Below, in pieces: positions 18,527-39,629 of a DNA stretch of 64,000 nucleotides. Position 1 is the stretch's first letter. Every line of letters starts with the position of its first letter. The translations under genes and the position numbers were made by a program. Source of the stretch: Corynebacterium jeikeium (lineage in GTDB: Bacteria; Actinomycetota; Actinomycetes; Mycobacteriales; Mycobacteriaceae); contig NZ_CP063195.1 in the NCBI RefSeq assembly GCF_028609885.1, positions 1-64,000 on the forward strand, given 5' to 3'. The notes under the pieces were generated by a model. The model searched no databases. It saw only the letters and a program-made list of their open reading frames with translations, and was not told where the DNA came from.

Positions 18527-20428
18527 TCAAGAATTTGGTGCATAGCCGGTGTCGAGGTGTTCAAGCTGAATATATGCAGGCAGGAAACCAGTAACGGGAT
18601 GGTACCCAGCCGCCGTGACCCATGTTGAAACGTCGGTTATTTGGTTAGCATCGATAACCTCGCACGTGACATGTGAACCGATAGAGTTTTCGGCAAAAAC
18701 CGCATTCACTGCGAGGGTCAATTCCTGATTGACGGCCACTCTGTCTGCGTATTCAGACTCGAACGCGACCGCCACCTTAATCAGATGCCTCTCACTGGCA
18801 GAGGTTTTTCTAGCATGAGCTACCCCGATCCATGACAGGCCTTTGGTGCAACAGTGGCGCAGAGCACGGCGAACGGCGGCGAGCGCGAGTGCCTGATTTG
18901 TGGCAGCTATTGATCGTGCCCCTAACGCACGGGGCCATAAGATGGGGAGTTCCAGCGACGTGGCCTGTGGAGGTGCAGCGTTGGGAGAGGAGGTGCTGAA
19001 GTCGGCCTCTTTCGGTGGATCGAGCCACAGTAACTCAATCGGGAAGTCCGTCAAGGAATCGATGCCCAGGTCACCGAGAACATCACACACGTCATGTGCC
19101 ACGGTGCCGAGTGGCGCCTGCTCATCGACCTCAACTGTCAGCAGTGGTTGATGAATGGAACTTTCCACAGCGGAGGTGCTATTGGCACGCACGCTAAGTA
19201 CGGAACACACTGAACCTGCGGTGCTGTCGGATGCGAGACCCCAAGTGCTGAGAGATTCCCAGATCAGCGTCGGTGTTACAGCTGCGGCGAGACAATCAGG
19301 ATCAGCCATCGCCTTTTCCTGTTGTAATTTAGAAACAAGCTCCGAGGATGCGAGATAGCCGCCGCGGTGAATTGCACGATCGACGATGCTTGTTCCTGGG
19401 ATGAAGCTGCGTACCCGTATGATGCCGCTATCTGGAAGTCGACGAATACTTAGCAAACTCCGTTGGGGAGGCTCTCTTAGTGCGTTATCGGCTGTGCGGG
19501 CGGCGCTGTCACCCAACACCTGCGTTAAGGATTGGACAGGGAGAAGCTCAGCGCTGAGCGGGATTCGGTACAGAATGATTGGTGTTTCTTCAGTATCCGG
19601 TTCATGGACGGTGCTAGGGAACGCCTGGTGGAAAATGATGTTGTGGAATACCGACTCGCAATGAACGCTACTTCCACATGCGCTAGCGAAAGCCTGTGCC
19701 CGGTCAACGATGTGCCTCAACACAGATTCTGTGAAAAGAGGATCATCTTCCTGAACGTGCAGGGTGATCACCGGAGCGGTGGTTGCAGAGTCATCATCAA
19801 CTTGAAACGCCACGCTATAGGCGAGGCGGCCACAACCGAGAACTTCCTGGGTGTTTAGAGAATCCGAACGAAGATCATTTACATACTTCCGAGTAAGTTT
19901 CCGTACTACCGCGCCCGTGAAGTATTCACGAATAGCAAGAGCTAGCAGCCCTAATGACTCGGCCATATTCCAGGCAGGAATATGTTCTGAAAGAGCCGAT
20001 CCTATCGCGGAGTTGCTGAGGCGCTGAGCTGCAGCTAATGCTTCCTTGGGACTGTAGTCGGGGCGGCGATCAGCGGCAGACGACTGCCTGAAGGAGTAGT
20101 TTTTGCTCCCGCACGCGCTATCGCTGACATCCAGGATGGCGAAGTCATGGTCGATGAGGTCATAATGCGTTAAACAGAGCTGCTGGTGGTTCACATAATC
20201 CAGCACAGATTCATCACTAGGAGCTCCAGCTAGCAACCACTGGATATGTGTGTACTCACGCTCAATGTCCTCGAATGTTGTGGCGCGTCCCCCGGCGCTC
20301 TGGATTAAGATTCTTCTGGGAGAATCCCCCGGAAGAACAGCCAACGCCAGGCAGTTTCGTGGGATGGCTAAACCACTGGTCCACGCTGCAATTCCAATCC
20401 AGCGCACATAGTCAATTGACATGGTCAT
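18527..20428 (-). CDS. Unrecognised 633-aa protein, separated from its probable operon partner by a transposon
   Basis: I do not recognise this protein. It starts MTMSIDYVRW at ATG 20428, whose three bases are the CAT target duplication of the composite transposon. Longer in-frame readings run only into IS30 sequence. It has no signal peptide, no obvious membrane helix, no Fic, kinase, nuclease or Walker motif. Three regions (about 205-265, 415-475 and 545-620) each look like a beta-strand followed by an amphipathic helix of the type VxxALxxLGI, so an internally repeated alpha/beta fold is possible. Its base composition is less GC-rich than core genes. Removing the transposon puts it directly behind the VbhA-like gene with a TGATG overlap. 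Its native promoter is therefore 8 kb away and it may now depend on the IS. Confidence 0.7.
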   Translation of the reverse strand: MTMSIDYVRWIGIAAWTSGLAIPRNCLALAVLPGDSPRRILIQSAGGRATTFEDIEREYTHIQWLLAGAPSDESVLDYVNHQQLCLTHYDLIDHDFAILDVSDSACGSKNYSFRQSSAADRRPDYSPKEALAAAQRLSNSAIGSALSEHIPAWNMAESLGLLALAIREYFTGAVVRKLTRKYVNDLRSDSLNTQEVLGCGRLAYSVAFQVDDDSATTAPVITLHVQEDDPLFTESVLRHIVDRAQAFASACGSSVHCESVFHNIIFHQAFPSTVHEPDTEETPIILYRIPLSAELLPVQSLTQVLGDSAARTADNALREPPQRSLLSIRRLPDSGIIRVRSFIPGTSIVDRAIHRGGYLASSELVSKLQQEKAMADPDCLAAAVTPTLIWESLSTWGLASDSTAGSVCSVLSVRANSTSAVESSIHQPLLTVEVDEQAPLGTVAHDVCDVLGDLGIDSLTDFPIELLWLDPPKEADFSTSSPNAAPPQATSLELPILWPRALGARSIAATNQALALAAVRRALRHCCTKGLSWIGVAHARKTSASERHLIKVAVAFESEYADRVAVNQELTLAVNAVFAENSIGSHVTCEVIDANQITDVSTWVTAAGYHPVTGFLPAYIQLEHLDTGYAPNS

Positions 20429-22142
20429 CGTGCTGTCAAGGGGTGAATGCGCCACTTCGACCGGGAGGTAGTTGTGACGCGTTGGACTCCGAAGGATGTT
20501 AAGGATGCTGCTGTTGAGCGCGTGGTGGCAGGCGAGGCAGTTAGCCTGGTCGCGCGTGATGTGGGTGTAGGCCCCGAATCGGTTTACGGTTGGTTGAGGG
20601 TAAGAGGTGTCGAACCTCCAGGCAGGCGTGCGAGTCGTTTGCGTGATCCGTTTGTCCGTGAGGCTGTTGGGTTGGTGCGTGCAGGTATGTCGATCAGTCA
20701 AGCAGCACAGACTGTTGGAATATCGACTGGCTTGCTTCACAGCAGGTTAAAGAAAGCTGGTGTAATCGAAGTGCGGCCTAGACGCGCCCACTTGTCACCT
20801 GATGAACGTGCCCAGGCCGTGGAGCGAGTGCTTGCTGGTGAGAGCTGTCAGACAGTGGCTGATGCTATCGGTGTGCATCCTTCTACCGTGTATGGGTGGA
20901 TAAGGAAGCAGCGGTATGCGAAGTTACGCCGGCAGCGACATCGTCGAACGCCTGATGAGGCGGTGGTGTCTTTGCCAGATACAGGCAAGAAGCTGGGTAA
21001 AGATTCTGTTATGCCAGCACCGATGAAAACTCAAGCCGTTGATGGATTTCCTAGCGGCGTATTCGACAAACACGCCTTAGTAGGGCGTGGTCGCAGGCTT
21101 ACTGTTGAAGACCGTGTTGCTATTGAAGCGGGATGTCGTGTCGGTGATTCGGCACGAGCCATCGCGCAGAAAATAAATAGGCACCACAGTGTCGTCGCTC
21201 GTGAAATCACCCGTAATGGTTGGAAGATCGTCGATGAGGACGGCACAGAGCAGCTGCGGTATAACGCCCACAACGCTGCTGTTTCTACTGCTGGTCGGAT
21301 GGTGCGGCCAAAACTACGCAAGCTCGATGAAAGCCCAACGCTTCGGGGTGTAGTAGTCGATTGCCTTGCCCGCAGGTGGTCACCTGGGCGCATTAGTGCA
21401 TGGCTTGAGCATGCTTTCAGCGATGATGAAAGCATGCGTATTTCCCACGAAGCGATCTACAGTGCCTTATACATTCAAGGCAAAGGCAGCCTGCGAGCCG
21501 AGCTTGAAGAAGTCATGAAGACTAAAGACGTACTTATCCGCGGCGGCTCAACACGCAAGCGTCGTGCCCGAAACGCTGGCGTGTTAACCGGTCGCCCTTG
21601 GATCAAAGGTGCTGAGATCACCCACCGCAGCCCGGAAGCTGATGACAGGGCTATTCCCGGGCACTGGGAGGGCGACCTTGTTATTGGTAAAGGTGGCAAA
21701 AGCGCGCTGATTACCCTAGTAGAGCGCACCAGCCGTTACACCCTGCTTGGACACCTTCCCGATGAGCACAGTTCACACACCGTGGTCGCAACCCTGCAGG
21801 ACATGGTCAAAGACCTCAACACCGAGCAGCTAAAGACCATCACATGGGACCAAGGCGCAGAAATGGCTGTCACAGCACAAGTCCAGATTAAAGACGGCTG
21901 CCAGGTGTTTTTCTGTGAACCGCACTCACCGTGGCAGAGACCAACCAACGAGAACACCAACGGCGAGATCAGGCGCAGGTTCTACAAAAAGGGCACCGAC
22001 TTTGCCACCGTCACACCCGAACATGTCGCGTGGGTGCAAAATGAGCTCAACGAAACACCCCGACAAATCCTCGGCGGCGCAACCCCACGTGAAATACTTA
22101 ACGAACTATTCAAGCGTGGCGCATCCACCGCTTGATTCCGCC
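20429..22142 (+). mobile_element. IS30-family insertion sequence, intact copy 1
   Basis: The element is 1714 bp long. The terminal inverted repeats have a 20-bp core TCAAGGGGTGAATGCGCCAC at 20436-20455 and its near complement at 22116-22135 (18 of 20 matching). Each core starts exactly 7 bp inside its end, so the borders are symmetric. One transposase gene fills the element and its stop codon lies in the right repeat. Confidence 0.88.
20474..22135 (+). CDS. IS30-family transposase (intact)
   Basis: The product is about 553 aa, longer than the usual 320-380 aa. It has three successive helix-turn-helix-like repeats at the N-terminus (about 1-45, 60-95 and 105-140, each with VxxGVxxxxVYGW-like motifs), then the IS30 HTH (SARAIAQKINRHHSVVAREITRNG). 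The DDE catalytic core has Asp in HWEGDLVIG, Asp in WDQGAEM and Glu in NENTNGEIRRRF. I prefer GTG 20474 with GGGAGG upstream; ATG 20447 lies inside the inverted repeat. Confidence 0.9.
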   Translation: MTRWTPKDVKDAAVERVVAGEAVSLVARDVGVGPESVYGWLRVRGVEPPGRRASRLRDPFVREAVGLVRAGMSISQAAQTVGISTGLLHSRLKKAGVIEVRPRRAHLSPDERAQAVERVLAGESCQTVADAIGVHPSTVYGWIRKQRYAKLRRQRHRRTPDEAVVSLPDTGKKLGKDSVMPAPMKTQAVDGFPSGVFDKHALVGRGRRLTVEDRVAIEAGCRVGDSARAIAQKINRHHSVVAREITRNGWKIVDEDGTEQLRYNAHNAAVSTAGRMVRPKLRKLDESPTLRGVVVDCLARRWSPGRISAWLEHAFSDDESMRISHEAIYSALYIQGKGSLRAELEEVMKTKDVLIRGGSTRKRRARNAGVLTGRPWIKGAEITHRSPEADDRAIPGHWEGDLVIGKGGKSALITLVERTSRYTLLGHLPDEHSSHTVVATLQDMVKDLNTEQLKTITWDQGAEMAVTAQVQIKDGCQVFFCEPHSPWQRPTNENTNGEIRRRFYKKGTDFATVTPEHVAWVQNELNETPRQILGGATPREILNELFKRGASTA

Positions 22143-22175
22143 CCCCTGGCTTGAACATATGGCGATGAAAACTAG

Positions 22176-22193
22176 ACTTCAAGTAGTTGAACT
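22176..22193. promoter_or_regulatory. Candidate MntR-type operator and promoter of mntH
   Basis: ACTTCAAGTAGTTGAACT has TTCAA and TTGAA arms in dyad. From memory this has the same arms and spacing as the MntR operator of C. glutamicum; that is not verified here. A -35 TTGAAC at 22151 and a -10 TAGACT at 22173 (16-bp spacer) overlap it. The IS30 end is only 8 bp upstream of the -35. Confidence 0.5.
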
Positions 22194-22211
22194 TTTGGTA
22201 TGGAGATGCCT

Positions 22212-23396
22212 ATGCGTAAGACCTTAATCAGCCTCACCGGCCCCGCCTTCGTTGCTGCAGTGGCTTACGTCGACCCCGGCAACGTAGCCGCCAACATCAG
22301 CGCCGGCTCCCACTACGGCTACCTCCTGGTGTGGGTACTCGTCGTGGCCAACCTCATGGCCATGTTCATCCAGTACCACTCCGCCAAACTGGGCCTAGTC
22401 ACCCACCGCTCCCTGCCGGAAATCATGGGCGAGCGTCTCTCCCGCCGCGCGCGCCTAGGCATGTGGGCCCAGGCCGAGCTCATCGCCGCGGCCACCGACC
22501 TCGCCGAAGTCATCGGCGGCGCCATTGCCCTGCAACTCCTCTTCAACCTCCCCCTGTTCGCGGGCGCGCTCATCATCGGCGCGGTCTCCATCATTCTCCT
22601 CATCTTCCAGAAGAAGAACCAGTGGTTCGAGGGGCTTGTCATCGGCCTGCTCCTGGTCATCTGCATCGGCTTCCTTGCCGGCCTCGCCATCGCCCCGCCC
22701 GACCCCGCCGACGTGGCCGGCGGCCTCATCCCCCGCCTAGAGGGCAAGGACAGCATCCTGCTGGCCGCCTCCATGTTGGGCGCCACCGTCATGCCGCACG
22801 CCATTTACCTACACTCCTCCCTGACCAAGCAGCGCTACCCCGACCTGGAAATCCCCCACGTGCTGGCCGGCACCCGCGCGGACATCGCCGTGGCGCTGTC
22901 CATCGCCGGGCTCGTCAACGTGGGCCTGCTGGTCCTGGCGGGCTCGGCCCTCTACGGCGTGGACGGCACAGAGACCATCTCCGGGGCCCACACGGCGATT
23001 GCCAGCCACCTCGGCCCGCTGGCCGGCGTTCTCTTCGCCATCGGCCTGCTGGCCAGCGGCCTCGCCTCGACGTCAGTGGGCGCCTACGCCGGCTCCGAAA
23101 TCATGGACGGCCTGCTTCACATCAAGGTCCCCCTACTAGTCCGCCGCCTGGTCACGCTCATCCCGGCGCTGGTCATCATCGGCTGCGGGGTCGACCCCAC
23201 TATGGCACTGGTGGTCAGCCAGGCACTTCTTTCCCTGGGCATCCCCTTCGCCATCATCCCGCTTTTCCGCTATGCCGGCTCCCGGGACGTCATGGGTGAG
23301 TTCGCCGCGAAACCCTGGTCTATGGCCGTGGGCTGGACGCTTGCCGCGCTGGTCATCGCACTCAATCTCGCCCTCGTGCTCCTGCCGCTGCTCTAG
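22212..23396 (+). CDS. mntH: NRAMP-family Mn2+/Fe2+:H+ symporter
   Basis: The 394-aa membrane protein has about 11 helices. The metal-site motifs are DPGN (residues 21-24, helix 1) and MPHAIYLHS (helix 6), with Asp, Asn and Met ligands present. This fits manganese import. I chose ATG 22212 (MRKTLISLTGPAF) with GGAGA at 22202-22206; ATG 22200 and 22206 are also in frame. It is the first cargo gene of the composite transposon and shows a MntR-like operator, so Mn-repressed expression is likely. Confidence 0.92.
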   Translation: MRKTLISLTGPAFVAAVAYVDPGNVAANISAGSHYGYLLVWVLVVANLMAMFIQYHSAKLGLVTHRSLPEIMGERLSRRARLGMWAQAELIAAATDLAEVIGGAIALQLLFNLPLFAGALIIGAVSIILLIFQKKNQWFEGLVIGLLLVICIGFLAGLAIAPPDPADVAGGLIPRLEGKDSILLAASMLGATVMPHAIYLHSSLTKQRYPDLEIPHVLAGTRADIAVALSIAGLVNVGLLVLAGSALYGVDGTETISGAHTAIASHLGPLAGVLFAIGLLASGLASTSVGAYAGSEIMDGLLHIKVPLLVRRLVTLIPALVIIGCGVDPTMALVVSQALLSLGIPFAIIPLFRYAGSRDVMGEFAAKPWSMAVGWTLAALVIALNLALVLLPLL

Positions 23397-23416
23397 GCCG
23401 CCTACAATCAGCAGCC

Positions 23417-23806
23417 ATGATTGAAGTAGCAGCCGTCGTCATCCGCAACCCACAAGGCCACGTGCTTACCGTGCGCAAGAAGTCCTCCACCAAGTACCAA
23501 CTGCCCGGCGGCAAGCCCGAGGCGGGCGAGGCGCTTGTCGACGCCGCCCTGCGCGAAGTTGCCGAAGAAGTAGGCCTCACCCTCGACGCCGAGAGCCTCA
23601 ACAAACTCGGCACCTTCGACGCTCCCGCCGCCAACGAACCGGGCGAGGTCGTCGTCGGCACCATCTTCACCTACACCCGCACCGTCACCGCCGACGAACC
23701 CCATGCCGCCGCCGAAATCGGCGACACCGCCTGGGTCAACCCAGCAGCCCCCGACCGCGAGCTTGCACACCTGCTGCGCGACCGCGTCTTCCCCACGCTG
23801 GCCTAG
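23417..23806 (+). CDS. NUDIX hydrolase
   Basis: The 129-aa protein has a complete Nudix box GGKPEAGEALVDAALREVAEEVG (about residues 32-54) with the metal-binding REVAEE. It starts 20 bp after mntH, so cotranscription is likely. The fold is small and of the MutT/ADP-ribose type; the substrate is unknown. It resembles the NUDIX half of the NUDIX-LOG fusion at 54.6 kb (RKK.....QLPGGK, then APAANEPG versus AVAANEAG). Confidence 0.9.
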   Translation: MIEVAAVVIRNPQGHVLTVRKKSSTKYQLPGGKPEAGEALVDAALREVAEEVGLTLDAESLNKLGTFDAPAANEPGEVVVGTIFTYTRTVTADEPHAAAEIGDTAWVNPAAPDRELAHLLRDRVFPTLA

Positions 23807-23832
23807 CGCCAACTGTCAACACTTCGGCGTCA

Positions 23833-23888
23833 TTGACCTCGAAACCATCAAGAGCTACCCTTTTGAACATGTTCACTGAACACGTTCA
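23833..23888 (+). promoter_or_regulatory. Leaderless tetR promoter with two operator palindromes
   Basis: TTGACC (23833-23838), 17 bp, then TACCCT (23856-23861) place the transcription start at or next to the ATG at 23869. The ATG sits inside the perfect palindrome TGAACATGTTCA (23864-23875). A second near-perfect copy TGAACACGTTCA lies at 23877-23888, 13 bp further. This layout predicts self-repression by the TetR protein. Confidence 0.6.
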
Positions 23889-24444
23889 CTCATCGCGCTC
23901 GGCCGCCAAAGCTGGCACCGTCAGCAAGGTCCTAGCCACCGCCTACGAACTCTTCCTCACTCAGGGCTACGCCACCACCAGCATCCGGACTATCGCATCC
24001 GAAGCTGGCGTTAGCGTGGGAACCGTCATGGGAGTCGGCGACAAACAAACGCTGCTCATCCGCACCATTGGCCAACACATTTCAGAACTCCACGATGACA
24101 TCCGGGGACAATCCGATAGCCTTCTCGATGTCCTGAGACCTTTCCTCCAGATGTTTACCGGCCACGAAGAGCTCTCCCGCGCCTTTGGCGCAGCACTCAT
24201 CCAACAAGGCAATCAAGGCGAAGCGCTCACCGCACTCAAAACGCTCCTGACCGATGAAATCACCCTGCGACTCGGCACCAGGCTCAGCAGCGCCGATGCG
24301 GCCGAGTACGCCGACCTGCTGTACAACGTCTACCTCGGCTTACTCATCGGCTGGGCCGCCGGAATCTACGACACCGAGCACCTCACATCCCAAGCCGCCT
24401 CATCGATCGAACGCCTCAACACCGCATTCGGAGTAACCCAATGA
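23869..24444 (+). CDS. TetR-family transcriptional regulator
   Basis: The 191-aa protein has an N-terminal HTH (about residues 20-60: YELFLTQGYATTSIRTIASEAGVSVGTVMGVG) and a helical ligand domain. In the usual signature the HTH ends F/Y-x-H-F-x-x-K; here it reads VMGVGDKQ, which is atypical. The start ATG 23869 is set by the promoter geometry; an upstream TTG in frame is the -35 box. The stop overlaps the DoxX gene by ATGA, so it probably controls that gene and itself. Confidence 0.85.
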   Translation: MFTEHVHSSRSAAKAGTVSKVLATAYELFLTQGYATTSIRTIASEAGVSVGTVMGVGDKQTLLIRTIGQHISELHDDIRGQSDSLLDVLRPFLQMFTGHEELSRAFGAALIQQGNQGEALTALKTLLTDEITLRLGTRLSSADAAEYADLLYNVYLGLLIGWAAGIYDTEHLTSQAASSIERLNTAFGVTQ

Positions 24445-24803
24445 TCCTAGAATCTTCCCCAGCCTGGCCCTCCCTTCTACTAGCAGCCATTCTGCTTGGC
24501 GACGCCGCCCTCTCCCTCAAACCAGTCCCCTTCATCGAAGCCTGCCTCAGCGGCGTCAAACTCCCCAAGGACTGGTGGTGGGCGCTCATTGTCATCAAGT
24601 GCCTCGCCGCCGTAGGACTCATTGCCGGCCTCTGGTTCCCCGGCGTAGGAATCACAGCCATGATTGGAGTCATCGCCTATTTCTGCGCGGCCGCAGCAGC
24701 CCATGTCCGCGCCCACTTCCTCGGTAGCGCATTCTGGATCAACTGCTTAGGCATGCTCGCATTCTCCATCGGAGTACTGATCCTGACGCTCGCACTGAAT
24801 TAA
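24441..24803 (+). CDS. DoxX-like small membrane protein
   Basis: The 120-aa protein has four predicted membrane helices (about 8-25, 46-66, 68-88 and 95-117), matching the DoxX/DUF4281-like four-helix layout. It overlaps tetR by 4 bp. A TetR-DoxX pair is a common arrangement in actinobacteria, often linked to solvent or quinone stress, but the substrate is unknown. Confidence 0.7.
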   Translation: MILESSPAWPSLLLAAILLGDAALSLKPVPFIEACLSGVKLPKDWWWALIVIKCLAAVGLIAGLWFPGVGITAMIGVIAYFCAAAAAHVRAHFLGSAFWINCLGMLAFSIGVLILTLALN

Positions 24804-24856
24804 GACACCAGTCAACCTTTCACGGCTTCCTGAAGGCAGATACATCATTGCACCTC

Positions 24857-24885
24857 TTGAATGATGACTTGATGCTTTCTACCCT
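24857..24885 (+). promoter_or_regulatory. Leaderless promoter of vapB
   Basis: TTGAAT (24857-24862), 17 bp, then TACCCT (24880-24885) lie 6 bp before the ATG at 24892, so the mRNA probably begins at the start codon. The -10 forms part of the short dyad TACC-CTAAA-GGTA, a possible autoregulatory site. Confidence 0.5.
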
Positions 24886-24891
24886 AAAGGT

Positions 24892-25134
24892 ATGCGCACG
24901 ACGATAAACCTCCCGCCGAAACTCCTTGAAGAAACGAAGGTCCAAGCCAAAGCCAACAATGTCACTTTGAGCTCATACGTCGAAGAGGCGGTCCGCGCTG
25001 CCCTCAAGAAGGAAGCCCGCATCAGTACCGAAGACACCCCCGTTAACCTGCCCTCCTTCGATTGCGGCGGACCGGCTCTAGTTGATCTCAGCAACAAAGA
25101 AGCTGTGTGGGCGGTACTCGATGATCATTCCTGA
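24892..25134 (+). CDS. vapB: VapB-like ribbon-helix-helix antitoxin
   Basis: The 80-aa protein begins MRTTINLPPKLLEETKVQAK with the RHH strand-helix-helix (residues 1-45) and ends in an acidic toxin-binding tail. It overlaps the following vapC start by 14 bp, the usual antitoxin-toxin design. The antitoxin is intact while its toxin is cut by an IS30 copy, so it is an orphan here. Confidence 0.85.
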   Translation: MRTTINLPPKLLEETKVQAKANNVTLSSYVEEAVRAALKKEARISTEDTPVNLPSFDCGGPALVDLSNKEAVWAVLDDHS

Positions 25135-25300
25135 TGTCAACATTCTCGTTTATGCCTTCCACTCCGCTGCACCGCAACATAAACCCGCTCAACAATGGCT
25201 AAGTAGTGCTCTAAATCGGCATGAAACAATTGGACTCCTGGATGTTGTGGCAACGGGCGTGCTGTCAAGGGGTGAATGCGCCACTTCGACCGGGAGGTAG
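25121..25300 (+). pseudogene. vapC: VapC PIN-domain toxin truncated by IS30
   Basis: The start MIIPDVNILVYAFHSAAPQH carries the first PIN-domain Asp (PDVN). After 45 native codons the gene runs into the IS at 25258 and ends at 25300 in IS sequence. A normal VapC has about 130 aa with three or four acidic active-site residues, so the toxin is dead. The missing part is not found behind the IS at 28.4 kb. Confidence 0.85.
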
Positions 25301-25302
25301 TT

Positions 25303-26284
25303 GTGACGCGTTGGACTCCGAAGGATGTTAAGGATGCTGCTGTTGAGCGCGTGGTGGCAGGCGAGGCAGTTAGCCTGGTCGCGCGTGATGTGGGTGTAGG
25401 CCCCGAATCGGTTTACGGTTGGTTGAGGGTAAGAGGTGTCGAACCTCCAGGCAGGCGTGCGAGTCGTTTGCGTGATCCGTTTGTCCGTGAGGCTGTTGGG
25501 TTGGTGCGTGCAGGTATGTCGATCAGTCAAGCAGCACAGACTGTTGGAATATCGACTGGCTTGCTTCACAGCAGGTTAAAGAAAGCTGGTGTAATCGAAG
25601 TGCGGCCTAGACGCGCCCACTTGTCACCTGATGAACGTGCCCAGGCCGTGGAGCGAGTGCTTGCTGGTGAGAGCTGTCAGACAGTGGCTGATGCTATCGG
25701 TGTGCATCCTTCTACCGTGTATGGGTGGATAAGGAAGCAGCGGTATGCGAAGTTACGCCGGCAGCGACATCGTCGAACGCCTGATGAGGCGGTGGTGTCT
25801 TTGCCAGATACAGGCAAGAAGCTGGGTAAAGATTCTGTTATGCCAGCACCGATGAAAACTCAAGCCGTTGATGGATTTCCTAGCGGCGTATTCGACAAAC
25901 ACGCCTTAGTAGGGCGTGGTCGCAGGCTTACTGTTGAAGACCGTGTTGCTATTGAAGCGGGATGTCGTGTCGGTGATTCGGCACGAGCCATCGCGCAGAA
26001 AATAAATAGGCACCACAGTGTCGTCGCTCGTGAAATCACCCGTAATGGTTGGAAGATCGTCGATGAGGACGGCACAGAGCAGCTGCGGTATAACGCCCAC
26101 AACGCTGCTGTTTCTACTGCTGGTCGGATGGTGCGGCCAAAACTACGCAAGCTCGATGAAAGCCCAACGCTTCGGGGTGTAGTAGTCGATTGCCTTGCCC
26201 GCAGGTGGTCACCTGGGCGCATTAGTGCATGGCTTGAGCATGCTTTCAGCGATGATGAAAGCATGCGTATTTCCCACGAAGCGA
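25303..26284 (+). pseudogene. IS30 transposase copy 2, N-terminal part
   Basis: It is identical to the first about 327 codons of the intact transposase up to the motif MRISHEA, then runs into the IS256-type element and stops at 26310. It keeps all HTH repeats but none of the DDE residues, so it could in principle act as a DNA-binding fragment. Confidence 0.88.
26276..26284. repeat. Target duplication left of the IS256-type element
   Basis: ACGAAGCGA at 26276-26284 is repeated at 27727-27735. The intact IS30 copy has it once, which proves the insertion and its 9-bp duplication. Confidence 0.95.
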
Positions 26285-27726
26285 GAGGGTGTCAGGAAGT
26301 TTGTGTGTGAGGCTCTGATCTAGAAGGAGTTTCACTGATAATGACTGCTGTGTCACCGAAGAAAGGCCATGACCCGGCAAGGGTCAACGAGATCAGCGAG
26401 AAGCTGATGGAAAATCCTGAGCTCGCTAGCTTGATCAGCGAGCTGTCGACGTCCGCTGATGATGCAAGCGACTTGGTCAAAGGCCTGCTGCAGGCATCGA
26501 TCAACGCTGGTCTGCAGGCGGAAATGGATGCGCATTTGGGCTACGGACATTCCGACCGTAAGGCCAAAGCCCAGGTGGAAGCCGCGCAGGAGAGCAATCA
26601 CCGCAACGGGTCGTACACCAAGACCGTCAATTCTGGCTACGGTGCAGTGGAAGTGACCGTGCCCAGGGATCGTGCCGGCACGTTTACACCGAAGATGGTG
26701 CCCAAGGGCGCACGTCGGCTGACAGAGCTCGACGATATGATCGTCTCGCTGTACGCCGGCGGGATGACAGTGCGCGATATTCAACACCATCTCGCAACCA
26801 CGCTTGGGGTGGATATGAGCCCGGATACGATCAGCACGATTACCGATGCGGTGTTAGACGAGGTCATGATCTGGCAAAACCGCCAGCTCGACGAGTTTTA
26901 CCCGGTGATCTTCCTCGACGCACTCCGCGTCAAAATCCGTGACGGTCACCGCGTGGTCAACAAAGCCTGCTACATGGCTGTTGGCATCGACATCGACGGC
27001 ATCAAGCACATCTTGGGATTGTGGATCGCTGAAAATGAAGGCGCTGCATTCTGGGCATCGGTGTGCGCGGATCTGGCCAACCGGGGTGTCCAAGACGTGT
27101 TCATCGTCTGCTGCGACGGGCTGAAAGGTCTACCGGAAGCCGTGGAGGCAACCTGGCCGAATTCTATGGTGCAGACCTGCATCGTGCACCTAATTCGAGC
27201 TGCGAACCGGTGGGTGTCCTACCAGGACCGCAAATCTGTCTCCCGTGCGCTACGTGAGGTCTACACGGCCGCCAACGAGGACACCGCCCGGGCCAGCCTT
27301 GATGCTTTCGAGGCCAGTGAACTGGGCCGTAAATACCCGCAGTCGGTCAAAGTCTGGCGCGACGCGTGGGAGCGGTTCATACCGTTTCTGCAGTTCCCGC
27401 CGGCCGCACGCCGGGTGCTCTACACCACCAATTCAATCGAGTCGCTCAACGCTGAACTGCGGAAAGCTACCCGTAACCGGGGGCAATTCCCGAACGATAC
27501 TGCGGCGCTGAAAACGCTGTGGCTGATGATCTGCAACATCGAAGACAAGCGCGCCGCCCAGCGAGCGAAGAAAGCGAAACGCGACATCGAATGCAACGGC
27601 TATATTGAAGGAGCGAAAGCCACCGGGTGGAAACAAGCCATCAACCAACTAGCTGTGGCGTACCCCGACCGATTCGCGGACTACTTGTAACCCAAGCCCC
27701 CCGCACACAAAGAATCGGACACTCTC
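26285..27726 (+). mobile_element. IS256-family insertion sequence (1442 bp)
   Basis: It begins GAGGGTGTC and ends GACACTCTC, giving short terminal inverted repeats with one mismatch. A perfect 9-bp duplication ACGAAGCGA flanks it, typical of the IS256 family (8-9 bp). It carries one transposase gene and lies in the IS30 transposase in the same orientation, so it is the youngest insertion of the island. Confidence 0.92.
26341..27690 (+). CDS. IS256-family transposase
   Basis: The 449-aa mutator-type transposase has the DDE residues in FLDALRVKI, VCCDGLKGLPEA and TTNSIESLNAELRK. An upstream AAGGAG precedes the ATG. The gene is full length and has no visible damage, so the element may be active. 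Confidence 0.93.
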   Translation: MTAVSPKKGHDPARVNEISEKLMENPELASLISELSTSADDASDLVKGLLQASINAGLQAEMDAHLGYGHSDRKAKAQVEAAQESNHRNGSYTKTVNSGYGAVEVTVPRDRAGTFTPKMVPKGARRLTELDDMIVSLYAGGMTVRDIQHHLATTLGVDMSPDTISTITDAVLDEVMIWQNRQLDEFYPVIFLDALRVKIRDGHRVVNKACYMAVGIDIDGIKHILGLWIAENEGAAFWASVCADLANRGVQDVFIVCCDGLKGLPEAVEATWPNSMVQTCIVHLIRAANRWVSYQDRKSVSRALREVYTAANEDTARASLDAFEASELGRKYPQSVKVWRDAWERFIPFLQFPPAARRVLYTTNSIESLNAELRKATRNRGQFPNDTAALKTLWLMICNIEDKRAAQRAKKAKRDIECNGYIEGAKATGWKQAINQLAVAYPDRFADYL

Positions 27727-28415
27727 ACGAAGCGATCTACAGTGCCTTATACATTCAAGGCAAAGGCAGCCTGCGAGCCGAGCTTGAAGAAGTCATGAAG
27801 ACTAAAGACGTACTTATCCGCGGCGGCTCAACACGCAAGCGTCGTGCCCGAAACGCTGGCGTGTTAACCGGTCGCCCTTGGATCAAAGGTGCTGAGATCA
27901 CCCACCGCAGCCCGGAAGCTGATGACAGGGCTATTCCCGGGCACTGGGAGGGCGACCTTGTTATTGGTAAAGGTGGCAAAAGCGCGCTGATTACCCTAGT
28001 AGAGCGCACCAGCCGTTACACCCTGCTTGGACACCTTCCCGATGAGCACAGTTCACACACCGTGGTCGCAACCCTGCAGGACATGGTCAAAGACCTCAAC
28101 ACCGAGCAGCTAAAGACCATCACATGGGACCAAGGCGCAGAAATGGCTGTCACAGCACAAGTCCAGATTAAAGACGGCTGCCAGGTGTTTTTCTGTGAAC
28201 CGCACTCACCGTGGCAGAGACCAACCAACGAGAACACCAACGGCGAGATCAGGCGCAGGTTCTACAAAAAGGGCACCGACTTTGCCACCGTCACACCCGA
28301 ACATGTCGCGTGGGTGCAAAATGAGCTCAACGAAACACCCCGACAAATCCTCGGCGGCGCAACCCCACGTGAAATACTTAACGAACTATTCAAGCGTGGC
28401 GCATCCACCGCTTGA
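27727..28415 (+). pseudogene. IS30 transposase copy 2, C-terminal part
   Basis: It is identical to the end of the intact transposase from HEAIYSALYIQGKG to the stop in the right inverted repeat, including the three DDE motifs. It has no start of its own apart from a chance frame running in from the IS256-type end. Confidence 0.85.
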
Positions 28416-28424
28416 TTCCGCCCA

Positions 28425-28673
28425 TCACTCTTGCCTGTTTGGCTTTTCCTTCTTGTTCTCGGCGATGCGTTTACGAAGGAACTTGGCGCGTTCGCTGTCG
28501 CCCAAACCGTGTCGTTCCAACACTTCCAGTACAGCTTCGTCGCCGGTGATTTCTCCTCGGAGGATGCGTCGGACATCCTCTTCGTCTCGGGTTGTCATGG
28601 TGTATCCGGCCATCGTCATGGAGGCCCGGACCGCGGCTACTTTTTGATCTTCGGTGCGGTTGTCGGCGGTCAT
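28425..28673 (-). CDS. VbhA-like small antitoxin-type protein
   Basis: The 82-aa protein has the VbhA-type pattern RASMTMAGYT ... RGEITGDEAVLEVLERHG. In VbhA and related Fic antitoxins the motif is [S/T]xxxE[G/N]; here it is S18-MTM-A22-G23, so the inhibitory Glu is replaced by Ala. ATG 28673 has AGAAGGA upstream; the frame continues to 28718. The TGA stop lies directly at the right border of the composite transposon. Before that insertion the next gene on the minus strand was most probably the 633-aa gene at 18527-20428, not a Fic toxin. Confidence 0.7.
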   Translation of the reverse strand: MTADNRTEDQKVAAVRASMTMAGYTMTTRDEEDVRRILRGEITGDEAVLEVLERHGLGDSERAKFLRKRIAENKKEKPNRQE

Positions 28674-28831
28674 GTCGTGTTCCTTCTGATCTGCTGTGCA
28701 GTTGTCTATGGCGGGCAAGTGCTAAGGCATTTTTGGTGGGTGTAGAGGTCAGTTTAGTGACGGGGTGGGACATCCCAGTCGGTAAATCAGCGAGATAATC
28801 GAACGCTTGTCTGCCGGACTGTCTTGTAGCG

Positions 28832-36573: not shown

Positions 36574-37965
36574 GTGAGTGTGCAGCGAAATATCCACGAG
36601 GAGCCGAACCAGCTTCTGCAGTTCCCCGAAGACCAGTGGTTCGAGCGCAAATCTTTCCGCATTAAGCCGAAGGACTTGGCTAAGACAATTGTCGGCATGG
36701 CCAATTCTGAGGGCGGCGTAATTGCGGTTGGCATTTCGGACCGGCAATTCGAAGGAAAGCCGACCGCTACCCAAGACAATGCTCTGCGGCAGACGTCGTT
36801 GGATCACACGGATCCGACGGTTCGCGTCCAGATCGAGTTGTGCGACGTGGATGATCGTACGCAGGTGTATCTTTTCCACGTCTTGCCCAGTGAGCGGGTC
36901 CATTACCTGAAGTCAGGGGACTGCTTCTTGCGAGTGGGTGATGAAACGAAGCACTTGAGGGCTGATGACATTCTGGAGCTTCGTTACACCAAGGGTGAGC
37001 AGCAATACGATGCCACGGTTCCCGCGAACGCTACCCCGAACGATCTCAACATGGATCTGGTTGAGACTTATGCCGAGACCATTGGTTCTTCGAGTGCCGA
37101 AGATGCTCTGAAGGCGCGCAACCTGATTGACCGGGAAGGCAGGCCACGTGCTGCTGGGATATTGCTTTTCGGGCACAATCCTCAAGAGTTCTTCCCGAAC
37201 GCACACATCCGGGTTTTACGTTTTGGCGAGGACGAGCGATTGCCTGGCCAGATGCAGCAGTTGATGGATGACCAGCGTTTTGATGGTCCGATACCGCAAC
37301 AGATTCAAGCAGCTCAGGAAGCAATTAGCGGAATGCTGCCAAATACTCGACGGCTCACCGGCGCGGGTCTTTTCGAGGATGAGAACCTTATCCCTCACGA
37401 CGTTTGGCTTGAGGGGTTGGTCAACGCGGTGGTGCATCGCTCGTACAGCATGGTCGGGGATCACATTCGTTTCGAAATTTTCCCGAGCCGGATTGAGGTC
37501 TCTAGCCCGGGGCGCTTCCCTGGTCTTGTAGATCCGACTAAACCGGAGTCCATTGCCCGCTTTGCGCGCAACCCTCTGATTGCGCGAGTAACCGCTGAGC
37601 TCCGCATTGGCCAGGAACTGGGTGAGGGAATCCGACGTATGTTTGCAAGTATGCGGCGGGTTGGGTTTGCTGATCCGGTATATACGCAAACTAGTGGCAG
37701 CGTAGTTCTTACATTGAACGCAACACAGCGTTTAGACGCCCAAGTGCTGGGTGGTCTCCCTCGTCATTCCGAGGATGTGCTTGCTGCTCTAGAAATGAGT
37801 GGTCGGCCAATGTCCACGGGTGATGTTGCCGAGGCGCTGGGCTTGTCGGCCCCGCCAGTGCGCCGTGCATTGCAGGCCATGCGTGATGCTGGGCTGGTTC
37901 ATTGGCGTGGAAATGGACCGCGCGATCCGCGTGCCGTGTGGTCTGTAAAGGGGCCGCTTAGGTAG
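36574..37965 (+). CDS. AlbA_2/Schlafen-type ATP-binding regulator with C-terminal winged helix
   Basis: The 463-aa protein has an AlbA_2-type domain (about 8-130: PEDQWFERKSFRIKPKDLAKTIVGMANSEGGVIAVGI). A GHKL-like HATPase_c_4 region follows (about 280-370: LVNAVVHRSYSMVGDHIRFEIF ... GRFPGLVDP ... GQELGEGIRRMF), then a C-terminal winged HTH (about 395-455: MSTGDVAEALGLSAPPVRRALQAMRDAGLV). Such proteins are known as putative regulators or RecG-like ATP-dependent factors. The GTG start lies 8 bp after TAGAAT, so the mRNA is probably leaderless. The iterons and palindrome at the promoter predict autoregulation. The whole gene lies in a 1500-bp repeat unit. Confidence 0.83.
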   Translation: MSVQRNIHEEPNQLLQFPEDQWFERKSFRIKPKDLAKTIVGMANSEGGVIAVGISDRQFEGKPTATQDNALRQTSLDHTDPTVRVQIELCDVDDRTQVYLFHVLPSERVHYLKSGDCFLRVGDETKHLRADDILELRYTKGEQQYDATVPANATPNDLNMDLVETYAETIGSSSAEDALKARNLIDREGRPRAAGILLFGHNPQEFFPNAHIRVLRFGEDERLPGQMQQLMDDQRFDGPIPQQIQAAQEAISGMLPNTRRLTGAGLFEDENLIPHDVWLEGLVNAVVHRSYSMVGDHIRFEIFPSRIEVSSPGRFPGLVDPTKPESIARFARNPLIARVTAELRIGQELGEGIRRMFASMRRVGFADPVYTQTSGSVVLTLNATQRLDAQVLGGLPRHSEDVLAALEMSGRPMSTGDVAEALGLSAPPVRRALQAMRDAGLVHWRGNGPRDPRAVWSVKGPLR

Positions 37966-38070: not shown

Positions 38071-39629
38071 GCGATTTGGCCCCCGAGTGTATCGAGTAGC
38101 GCCGCCGCCTTCACTAGCGTTTCCTGGTACTCCGCCAGCGGGTCCGAGTCCGCGACGATCGCGCCGCCGACCCCGAAAGAACACTCCGCGCCATCGTCGA
38201 CGAGCGTGCGGATCGTGATGTTCAGCTCTGTGGCGGAATTGGGGGAGATCCAGCCGATCGCCCCGGAATAGAACCCGCGCGGATGCGGCTCCAGCTCCTC
38301 GATAATCTCCATCGTCCGGATTTTCGGCGCGCCTGTCATGGAGCCGCCGGGGTAACTGGCCGCAATCGCGTCGACGGCGCCGAGCCCCGGACGGAGCTGG
38401 CCGGTAATGGTGCTGACCAGCTGATGGACGTGCGAGAAACTCTCCACCGAAAAAATTTTCGGCACCTCCACACTGCCCGGCACGCACACTCTGCCGAGGT
38501 CGTTGCGCAGCAGGTCAACGATCATCAGGTTCTCCGCCCGGTCCTTGGGGTTGCTCATTAATTCCTGACGCCCCCTCGCATCCGCCGCTCCGTCCTCCCC
38601 ACGGGGGCGGGTGCCCTTGATCGGCTTGGCGGAGACCTCTCCCTCCGGTGAGACCTTGAGGAACCTCTCGGGGGAGGCGCTGAGGATGTGCAGTGGCGCC
38701 TGACCAGGGCGGTCGAAGCGCAGGAATGCGCCATAGGGAACCGGGCTGACTTCGCGGAGCCGCAGGTAGGCCAGTAATTCCGGTGACGGTGCGTAGGGCG
38801 AGTTCGCGCCGGGTTGCAGGTCGGCCAGATCTCGCAGTGCCGGCCCGCGGGCGGTATTTGTCAGGCAGACCTCGTAGCTATCGCCTGCGGCAATGTAATC
38901 CAGGCAGCGCTGGATGCTCGCCAGGTACTGCCGCTTCGGCTGGTCGAAGCGGAAGGCCGCCGCGCGCTCAATGGTCACGGACTCGGCGGGCACCGTGTCA
39001 CGGGGCGGTGCACCGCCCGGAATGCTGCTCGGAAAGGTTTCCGGAATGGCTTCCAGTCCCGCACCGCTTGTCTCGGAGACCTCGCCAGCGATCCGTCGCA
39101 CCTCGGCGACGGTGGTGTCCAGCCATTCCAGCTGCTCATCGTGGGTGCTCCCGGCATCCCCGGCATCTTTGGCACTCGGCAGCATTGCCATTGCATAGGC
39201 CACCGCGTGTGCGTGGTCGATCACGACCGCCCGGTCGGCGAACAGCAGTGCCGCATCCGGATGGTCTTCCCGGGAGCGGGCAATGTCCTCCACTCCGTAT
39301 CCCAATGCGCCCACCCAGCCGAGGGCGAAGTCGCACGGCCAGTCTCGCGGAATCTCAACCGACTCGTCGAAAGTGCTTCTGAGCTGCGCGAAGAACGTAT
39401 TCGAGCTTTCCACCTGCGGCATCCACGTTCGGGCTAGGGGACCCGCGCTATTTGCCAGCACACTGAGGGCGCCGCCGTTGCCGGAGGAATCCAGCCAGGC
39501 GGCGGTGGGGGCGTCATTAAATAAAGACAAAAAGACCCGCGGCGCGACACTTCCGGCGATGTCCCGACTACCTGTCTGCGGCAGTGGGATGGTGCGGAAT
39601 GTGAGGCGGCGCGGGGTCATGTACGCCAT
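38067..39629 (-). CDS. pabB: Aminodeoxychorismate synthase component I
   Basis: The 520-aa protein converts chorismate and ammonia to 4-amino-4-deoxychorismate for folate. The C-terminal chorismate-binding domain (about 235-515) has PIKGTRPRGEDG, whose Lys marks PabB rather than anthranilate synthase TrpE (PIAGT), then ENLMIVDLLRNDLGR and GGSMTGAPKIRTMEIIEELE. The start is ATG 39629 or 39620, both without a clear ribosome site. Its glutaminase partner PabA lies at 43.0 kb. The stop codon is provided by the 99-bp repeat copy B. Confidence 0.9.
   Translation of the reverse strand: MAYMTPRRLTFRTIPLPQTGSRDIAGSVAPRVFLSLFNDAPTAAWLDSSGNGGALSVLANSAGPLARTWMPQVESSNTFFAQLRSTFDESVEIPRDWPCDFALGWVGALGYGVEDIARSREDHPDAALLFADRAVVIDHAHAVAYAMAMLPSAKDAGDAGSTHDEQLEWLDTTVAEVRRIAGEVSETSGAGLEAIPETFPSSIPGGAPPRDTVPAESVTIERAAAFRFDQPKRQYLASIQRCLDYIAAGDSYEVCLTNTARGPALRDLADLQPGANSPYAPSPELLAYLRLREVSPVPYGAFLRFDRPGQAPLHILSASPERFLKVSPEGEVSAKPIKGTRPRGEDGAADARGRQELMSNPKDRAENLMIVDLLRNDLGRVCVPGSVEVPKIFSVESFSHVHQLVSTITGQLRPGLGAVDAIAASYPGGSMTGAPKIRTMEIIEELEPHPRGFYSGAIGWISPNSATELNITIRTLVDDGAECSFGVGGAIVADSDPLAEYQETLVKAAALLDTLGGQIA
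39507..39534 (+). repeat. Dispersed GGCGTCA/A-rich motif (antisense in pabB)
   Basis: GTGGGGGCGTCATTAAATAA is followed by AGACAAAAAG. It is antisense to pabB codons, which argues that the DNA rather than the protein is conserved. Confidence 0.5.

Follow-up and report, generated by a model that had tools for sequence, protein, structure and literature searches.

The first 64,000 bp of the Corynebacterium jeikeium contig NZ_CP063195.1 (assembly GCF_028609885.1, positions 1-64,000; hereafter the window, whose positions serve as coordinates) contain a composite transposon in which two copies of the insertion sequence (IS) IS1513 enclose a cassette carrying the manganese transporter gene mntH. The composite lies between a gene for a protein of 633 amino acids (aa) and a vbhA-like gene, which the original prediction took for a two-gene operon split by the element. 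We consider it likely that the composite was born at a locus similar to the one found in genome G167, that it entered the vbhA-like gene, and that a deletion between two GGTCAT repeats then joined the ATG of the 633-aa gene to the transposon border; no vbhA-633 operon would have existed. The IS copies, the 3-bp duplication rule, an independent composite, the cassettes of other species and the order of genes in relatives were read from the sequence. From there we infer three steps, namely the birth of the composite, its insertion at CAT in vbhA, and the deletion between the GGTCAT repeats.

Structure and target duplications of the composite transposon

The two IS1513 copies are in direct orientation. 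Copy L is intact (20429-22142, plus strand, 1714 bp) and includes a transposase open reading frame (ORF) at 20447-22135. It is followed by the 3115-bp cassette (22143-25257, plus strand), which begins with CCC and ends with GGG, and by copy R (25258-28422, plus strand, 3165 bp). The transposase is of the IS30 type (NF033563, 217 bits with a cut-off of 80), and the name IS1513 was assigned from 99.9% identity over 1714 bp to the Corynebacterium striatum plasmid pTP10. Copy R is broken up by a nested element of the IS256 family (26285-27726, plus strand, 1442 bp; transposase at 26341-27690, NF033543), which is bordered, as judged by eye, by the 9-bp repeats ACGAAGCGA. This insertion has broken the transposase of copy R. 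When the nested insertion is subtracted, copy R measures 3165 - 1442 - 9 = 1714 bp. The inverted-repeat cores TCAAGGGGTGAATGCGCCAC and TCAAGCGGTGGATGCGCCAC were found by eye to agree at 18 of 20 positions, and each is located 7 bp from the end of the element. The symmetry of the borders and the equal length of the two IS copies were both anticipated in the original prediction and are borne out once the nested element is removed from copy R.

The outer borders carry CAT on both sides, as had been noted. The left CAT (20426-20428) doubles as the complement of the start codon ATG of the 633-aa gene and closes a GGTCAT (20423-20428), and the right CAT (28423-28425) consists of native letters of the vbhA-like 3' end. 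The inner borders, CCC and GGG, differ from each other and from CAT, again as described earlier; there is a duplication outside the unit and none inside it.

The target duplications of IS1513 were also evaluated at other sites. The 242 Corynebacterium genomes compared here include one genome per species, and the relatives are other species. IS1513-like matches of any length are present in 54 of the 242 genomes, and the duplication count rests on 13 loci (L001, L002, L003, L023, L048, L049, L054, L055, L056, L077, L078, L094, and L096). A copy was regarded as complete when both ends matched the exact end words at the right distance; no complete end pair was found with these words at L054, L055, L056, and L096. 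All five complete solo copies that were read are flanked by a 3-bp duplication: GAT and GTA in this genome, TTG in pTP10, and CAG and CTG at two relatives of 96% identity in G084. The latter two (L094, 3570-8092) lie about 1.1 kb apart in direct orientation and represent a potential composite in the making.

The IS1513-cassette-IS1513 unit occurs at other sites, namely at L077, at L078, and, as far as the contig extends, at L082. Both outer borders are readable in three composites, and the triplets match in two of them: CAT/CAT in the window and AGA/AGA at L078, an independent composite in Corynebacterium tuberculostearicum with its own duplication. The left-hand IS1513 is whole in all three composites. 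The right-hand copy is disrupted by another IS in each of the four cases read to both ends (the window, L077, L078, and L086); the interrupting elements belong to the IS256 family twice, at neighboring points, to IS3, and to an ISL3-like family below its cut-off. At L082 and L087 the right-hand copy is cut by contig ends, and these are outside this count. To judge from these borders, the structure in the window is a real composite transposon that was probably transposed as a whole unit. The earlier proposal of whole-unit transposition is upheld in that the unit sits elsewhere, with its own 3-bp duplication in one of the two other cases that are fully readable (L078).

The inner ends point to where the composite may have been born. 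G167 (L091) contains a cassette of 93% identity with other insertions, in which the vapC-like reading continues past CAACGGG. The left flank of L091 is common to L088-L090, and the sequence of L091 has a native-looking continuation across both ends of the cassette. CCC and GGG are thus the ends expected after two IS1513 insertions that each duplicated 3 bp, and IS1513 would have inserted at these triplets on either side of an mntH...vapC locus like that of G167.

Flanking genes and the origin of the present border

The 633-aa gene (18527-20428, minus strand) has lost its native leader, and the vbhA-like gene (28425-28718, minus strand) has an altered and shortened 3' end relative to its counterparts in other species. 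The 633-aa protein was matched in 14 of 201 genomes, including its own. Outside its own genome there are seven copies of the gene, about 90-97% identical, in six genomes (G133, G075, G078, G126, G035, and two in G070). In all seven the start codon is preceded by a nearly identical short leader that is unlike the right flank in the window. The order of tRNA genes, 633-aa gene and vbhA-like gene found in the window is also found in G078 and G126, and in G075 the DNA match starts inside a tRNA-Ala gene.

Positions for both flanking genes were established in three relatives (L025 in G075, L026 in G078, and L027 in G126), and in each of them the match to the window stops at 20428 and restarts at 28423. 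The DNA between the two sides amounts to 2236, 2236, and 2475 bp, respectively, and in all three relatives it contains a gene for a 576-aa protein on the opposite strand. Additional coding sequence of this kind in intact relatives had been named in the original prediction as grounds for refuting it. The copy from G075 has Schlafen AlbA_2, HATPase_c_4, and winged-helix domains. In G133 (L024) the 576-aa gene adjoins the 633-aa gene and the vbhA stretch is a weak remnant; in G035 and G070 the vbhA side was unmatched within the stretches fetched. A tblastn search with the VbhA-like protein against 22 loci (about 1.5 kb on each side of the matches) matched only the flank in the window, and the vbhA-like gene was later located 2.2-2.5 kb from the 633-aa gene in the three relatives. 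No close copy of the 576-aa regulator was found in the genome of the window, where the best match has 25% identity; this relative is located at 36667-37593.

In L025, L026, and L027 the letters GTGATG lie inside the vbhA-like gene and are read in frame, and the encoded proteins end in ...KSDDLTDNA. The vbhA-like gene of the window differs from these three by a one-base change in length near its 3' end, and the native last codons are lost, the insertion having truncated the gene. As a result of this upstream change, the TGA becomes a stop codon. Since GTGATG belongs to the vbhA reading frame and a separate leader precedes the 633-aa gene in relatives, the TGATG at the joint mixes a native vbhA stretch with a native start that shares the ATG. 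The statement that neither reading frame is damaged is incorrect, given the one-base change and lost end of the one gene and the missing native leader of the other.

Our preferred explanation is that the composite would have entered the vbhA-like gene close to its 3' end, at the CAT of a GGTCAT, and that this triplet was thereby duplicated. Two copies of GGTCAT, one of them touching the transposon, would then have bounded a deletion of approximately 2.2 kb, in which the 3' end of vbhA, the AlbA_2 regulator gene and the leader of the 633-aa gene were lost and the start codon ATG of the 633-aa gene came to lie at the edge of the transposon. GGTCAT is present on the vbhA side in all three relatives and on the 633 side in five of seven. 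An insertion at the vbhA site followed by a GGTCAT-GGTCAT deletion produces the present left border without further coincidence.

Several observations weigh against this explanation. The outer triplets at L077 (atg/aag) do not match, and a 3-bp match is expected by chance in 1 of 64 cases. On the 633 side, two of the seven relatives (L028 and L030) read GGCCAT. None of the genomes was found to retain the regulator alongside a transposon in vbhA, which makes the proposed order of insertion and deletion tentative, and the relatives used are other species. Finally, L088-L090 differ from L091 beyond the right end of the cassette, and the ancestral right end, with the CCC/GGG birth that it implies, consequently rests on one genome of 93% identity (L091).

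Two other sequences of events were considered. The deletion may have come first, with slippage between the GGTCAT repeats joining vbhA to the 633-aa gene and the composite entering the joint later. No extra matches are needed here to account for CAT/CAT and the 6-bp repeat, but we regard this course as unlikely, as the composite would have had to hit, independently and precisely, a 6-bp scar in a genome of 2.5 Mb, and no empty joint is present in the 242 genomes. Alternatively, the composite may have entered where the 633-aa gene starts, with a subsequent deletion, by attack of the IS end or by 3-bp slippage, running from its right border to the CAT of vbhA, or two IS1513 insertions at both GGTCAT sites may have recombined. 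Deletions that begin at an edge of the inverted repeats are reported for IS30 (PMC9333248). However, the shared GGT, or the whole GGTCAT, would be left to chance, and a preference of IS1513 for GGTCAT was not borne out by the triplets read (CAT, GAT, GTA, TTG, CAG, CTG, and AGA); we consider these routes improbable. The operon split by the composite, with a native TGATG stop-start overlap as originally proposed, draws on the CAT on both sides and the joined letters TGATG, but it is extremely unlikely given the extra gene and 2.2-2.5 kb between the two genes in all three relatives that have both, the in-frame position of TGATG inside their vbhA genes, and the different leader in all seven nearly identical copies of the 633-aa gene. 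A direct vbhA-633 joint without IS1513 would read GTGATGACC, and a search for the joined 20-letter site, with one mismatch allowed, found it in none of the 242 Corynebacterium genomes, one for each species; the adjacency that had been expected in uninterrupted relatives is not conserved. With insertion into vbhA followed by deletion as the preferred course, the locus illustrates how a border deletion can mimic an operon junction, since the matching duplication and the TGATG would have passed for a split operon without the relatives.

The functions of the two flanking genes were also addressed. The 633-aa protein has no assigned family; PADLOC, Pfam, and NCBIfam scans and an alignment-based sequence search of the PDB returned nothing. 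The VbhA-like protein scores 24.9 bits against PF18495, for which the cut-off is 25.9. The Fic family was absent among the 10 window proteins in a general library scan, in which no search was aimed at Fic. No outward promoter for the 633-aa gene was identified by consensus in the IS end. The 633-aa frame stays open into IS1513 (20429-20740, minus strand) to give an ORF of 737 aa, and a longer fused product is possible. In G126 (L027, 9960-10842) an 82-aa ORF separates two vbhA-like ORFs, and the L024 homologue of the 82-aa ORF also has a match to PF18495 that stays under the cut-off; small genes of the VbhA type seem to multiply here. Elsewhere in the window, ARAGORN assigned a tRNA-Asp with anticodon atc (38850-38934), an unusual assignment that may be spurious.

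Content, distribution and IS-free copies of the cassette

The cassette contains six genes on the plus strand. The first is mntH (22200-23396), whose 398-aa product passes the NCBIfam cut-off for the MntH manganese uptake transporter of the Nramp family (NF001923). It is followed by genes for a 129-aa NUDIX-domain protein (23417-23806), a 203-aa TetR-type regulator (23833-24444), a 120-aa DoxX-like membrane protein (24441-24803), and an 80-aa ribbon-helix-helix antitoxin-like protein (24892-25134) with weak matches only, all below the cut-offs. The last is the 5' part of a vapC-like gene cut at GGG by the second IS (25121-25257), whose reading goes on in G167. The cassette may be of benefit under manganese limitation.

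Among the 242 Corynebacterium genomes, its own included, the 3115-bp cassette recurs in at least 11 places of 10 other genomes, where it is 99.8-100% identical along 3094 bp or more. This count is a lower bound because two candidates per genome were scored. The carriers include C. tuberculostearicum FDAARGOS_993 (two places) and SK141, C. jeikeium Cj47444, C. phoceense, C. gottingense, and Corynebacterium sp. NML98-0116. Within the stretches fetched, IS1513 is present on both sides in three of the 11 places (L077, L078, and L082, the last up to its contig ends), on the right side only in two (L086 and L087), and on neither side in six (L079, L080, L081, L083, L084, and L085). A shorter version (approximately bases 1-1621) is found in the C. 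diphtheriae plasmid NC_005001.1 (4817-6441) and in the contigs L092/L099 (probably one record), L102, and L108; in L092 it keeps the left end of the full cassette. L102 is labeled Micromonospora and may be a contaminant contig; it also has relaxase-like, ParA-like, and resolvase-like genes, named by eye.

The six IS-free cassettes occupy three locations. Empty sites were found for all three and IS1513 remnants at one. At the first location (L079, L083, and L085), 18 loci were read: three have the cassette, in five sister genomes the site is empty (CAGCGAT-CTTGAAG) and both flanks align, the locus ends there in two more, and the alignment stops short in eight. The cassette is bounded by GAT and CTT without any duplication. 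At the second location (L081 and L084), for which one genome has the empty site (L172), L081 has TTG on both sides together with GCC and C, which equal the final three bases and the initial base of IS1513. In L084, TTTTTG is followed by the first six bases of IS1513 (CGTGCT), which run into base 7 of the cassette over a shared GCT. The simplest reading of the second location is a single insertion from which the left IS was lost in two different ways. At the third location (L080), 13 loci were read, and 11 of them are empty. These carry TTCTGG or CTCTGG followed by TTACC, with alignment of both flanks in 10, and L080 has the cassette joined across CTGG.

Loss of the IS copies is the likely cause of the IS-free cassettes. 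Since the first and third locations alone fall short of proving such loss, movement of the cassette without its IS copies at some sites is kept as a reading, in which the transposase would have cut the inner ends, freed CCC...GGG and joined it to a new site without duplication. We consider this very unlikely, and the second location does not require it because bases of IS1513 remain there. An IS91-like or site-specific end of the cassette, suggested by two right flanks that begin with CTTG, was dropped; the ends fit IS1513 insertion points, and the second location keeps bases of the IS ends.

The carriers at the first location have a 400-bp right flank that is 100% identical, whereas their left flanks are 94.8-96.8% identical and the right flanks of the empty relatives diverge by 5-17%. 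From this contrast, the block at the first location probably also spread between species by homologous recombination.

Comparison with known systems

The plasmid pTP10 (NC_004939), with Tn5564/IS1513, has the same IS (99.9% over 1714 bp) with a 3-bp duplication, TTG. It differs in having a single IS1513 copy, near cmx, and it has no match to the mntH cassette. In PMC1590026, the targets of Tn5432/IS1249 and Tn5564/IS1513 are given as A/T triplets or CTAG; by eye, CTAG is at the triplet in none of the sites read here. The available parts of the open-licence PMC literature naming IS1513 with Corynebacterium (PMC8304765, PMC1590026, and PMC6037045) do not describe the composite, and literature searches covering Corynebacterium mntH composite transposons, IS30 and manganese, and a C. 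tuberculostearicum manganese transporter yielded no description of it.

IS1513 belongs to the same family as IS30 of Escherichia coli by NF033563. The duplications of IS30 are 2 bp according to PMC9333248, compared with 3 bp for IS1513 here, and the deletions and insertions via junctions of inverted repeats described there provide a model for IS-linked loss.

The closest parallel is Tn6330 (ISApl1-mcr-1-ISApl1), as presented in PMC5821093. Tn6330 likewise has direct copies of an IS30-family element around a cargo, here of approximately 2.6 kb, keeps inner-end dinucleotides from its birth insertions as ancestral inner duplications, gains new outer duplications on transposition, and has since lost one or both IS in many copies by abortive transposition. 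The present case differs in the element (IS1513), the 3-bp duplications, the host (Corynebacterium), and the cassette, which carries a manganese transporter and is found in at least 11 further full-length places. The origin and decay of the mntH composite appear to parallel the published ISApl1-mcr-1 case. It would be a further natural IS30-family composite, in a Gram-positive host, that spreads its cargo between species and then sheds its IS copies. The cargo gene concerns a nutrient metal and not resistance, and the IS-shedding model becomes testable beyond mcr-1.

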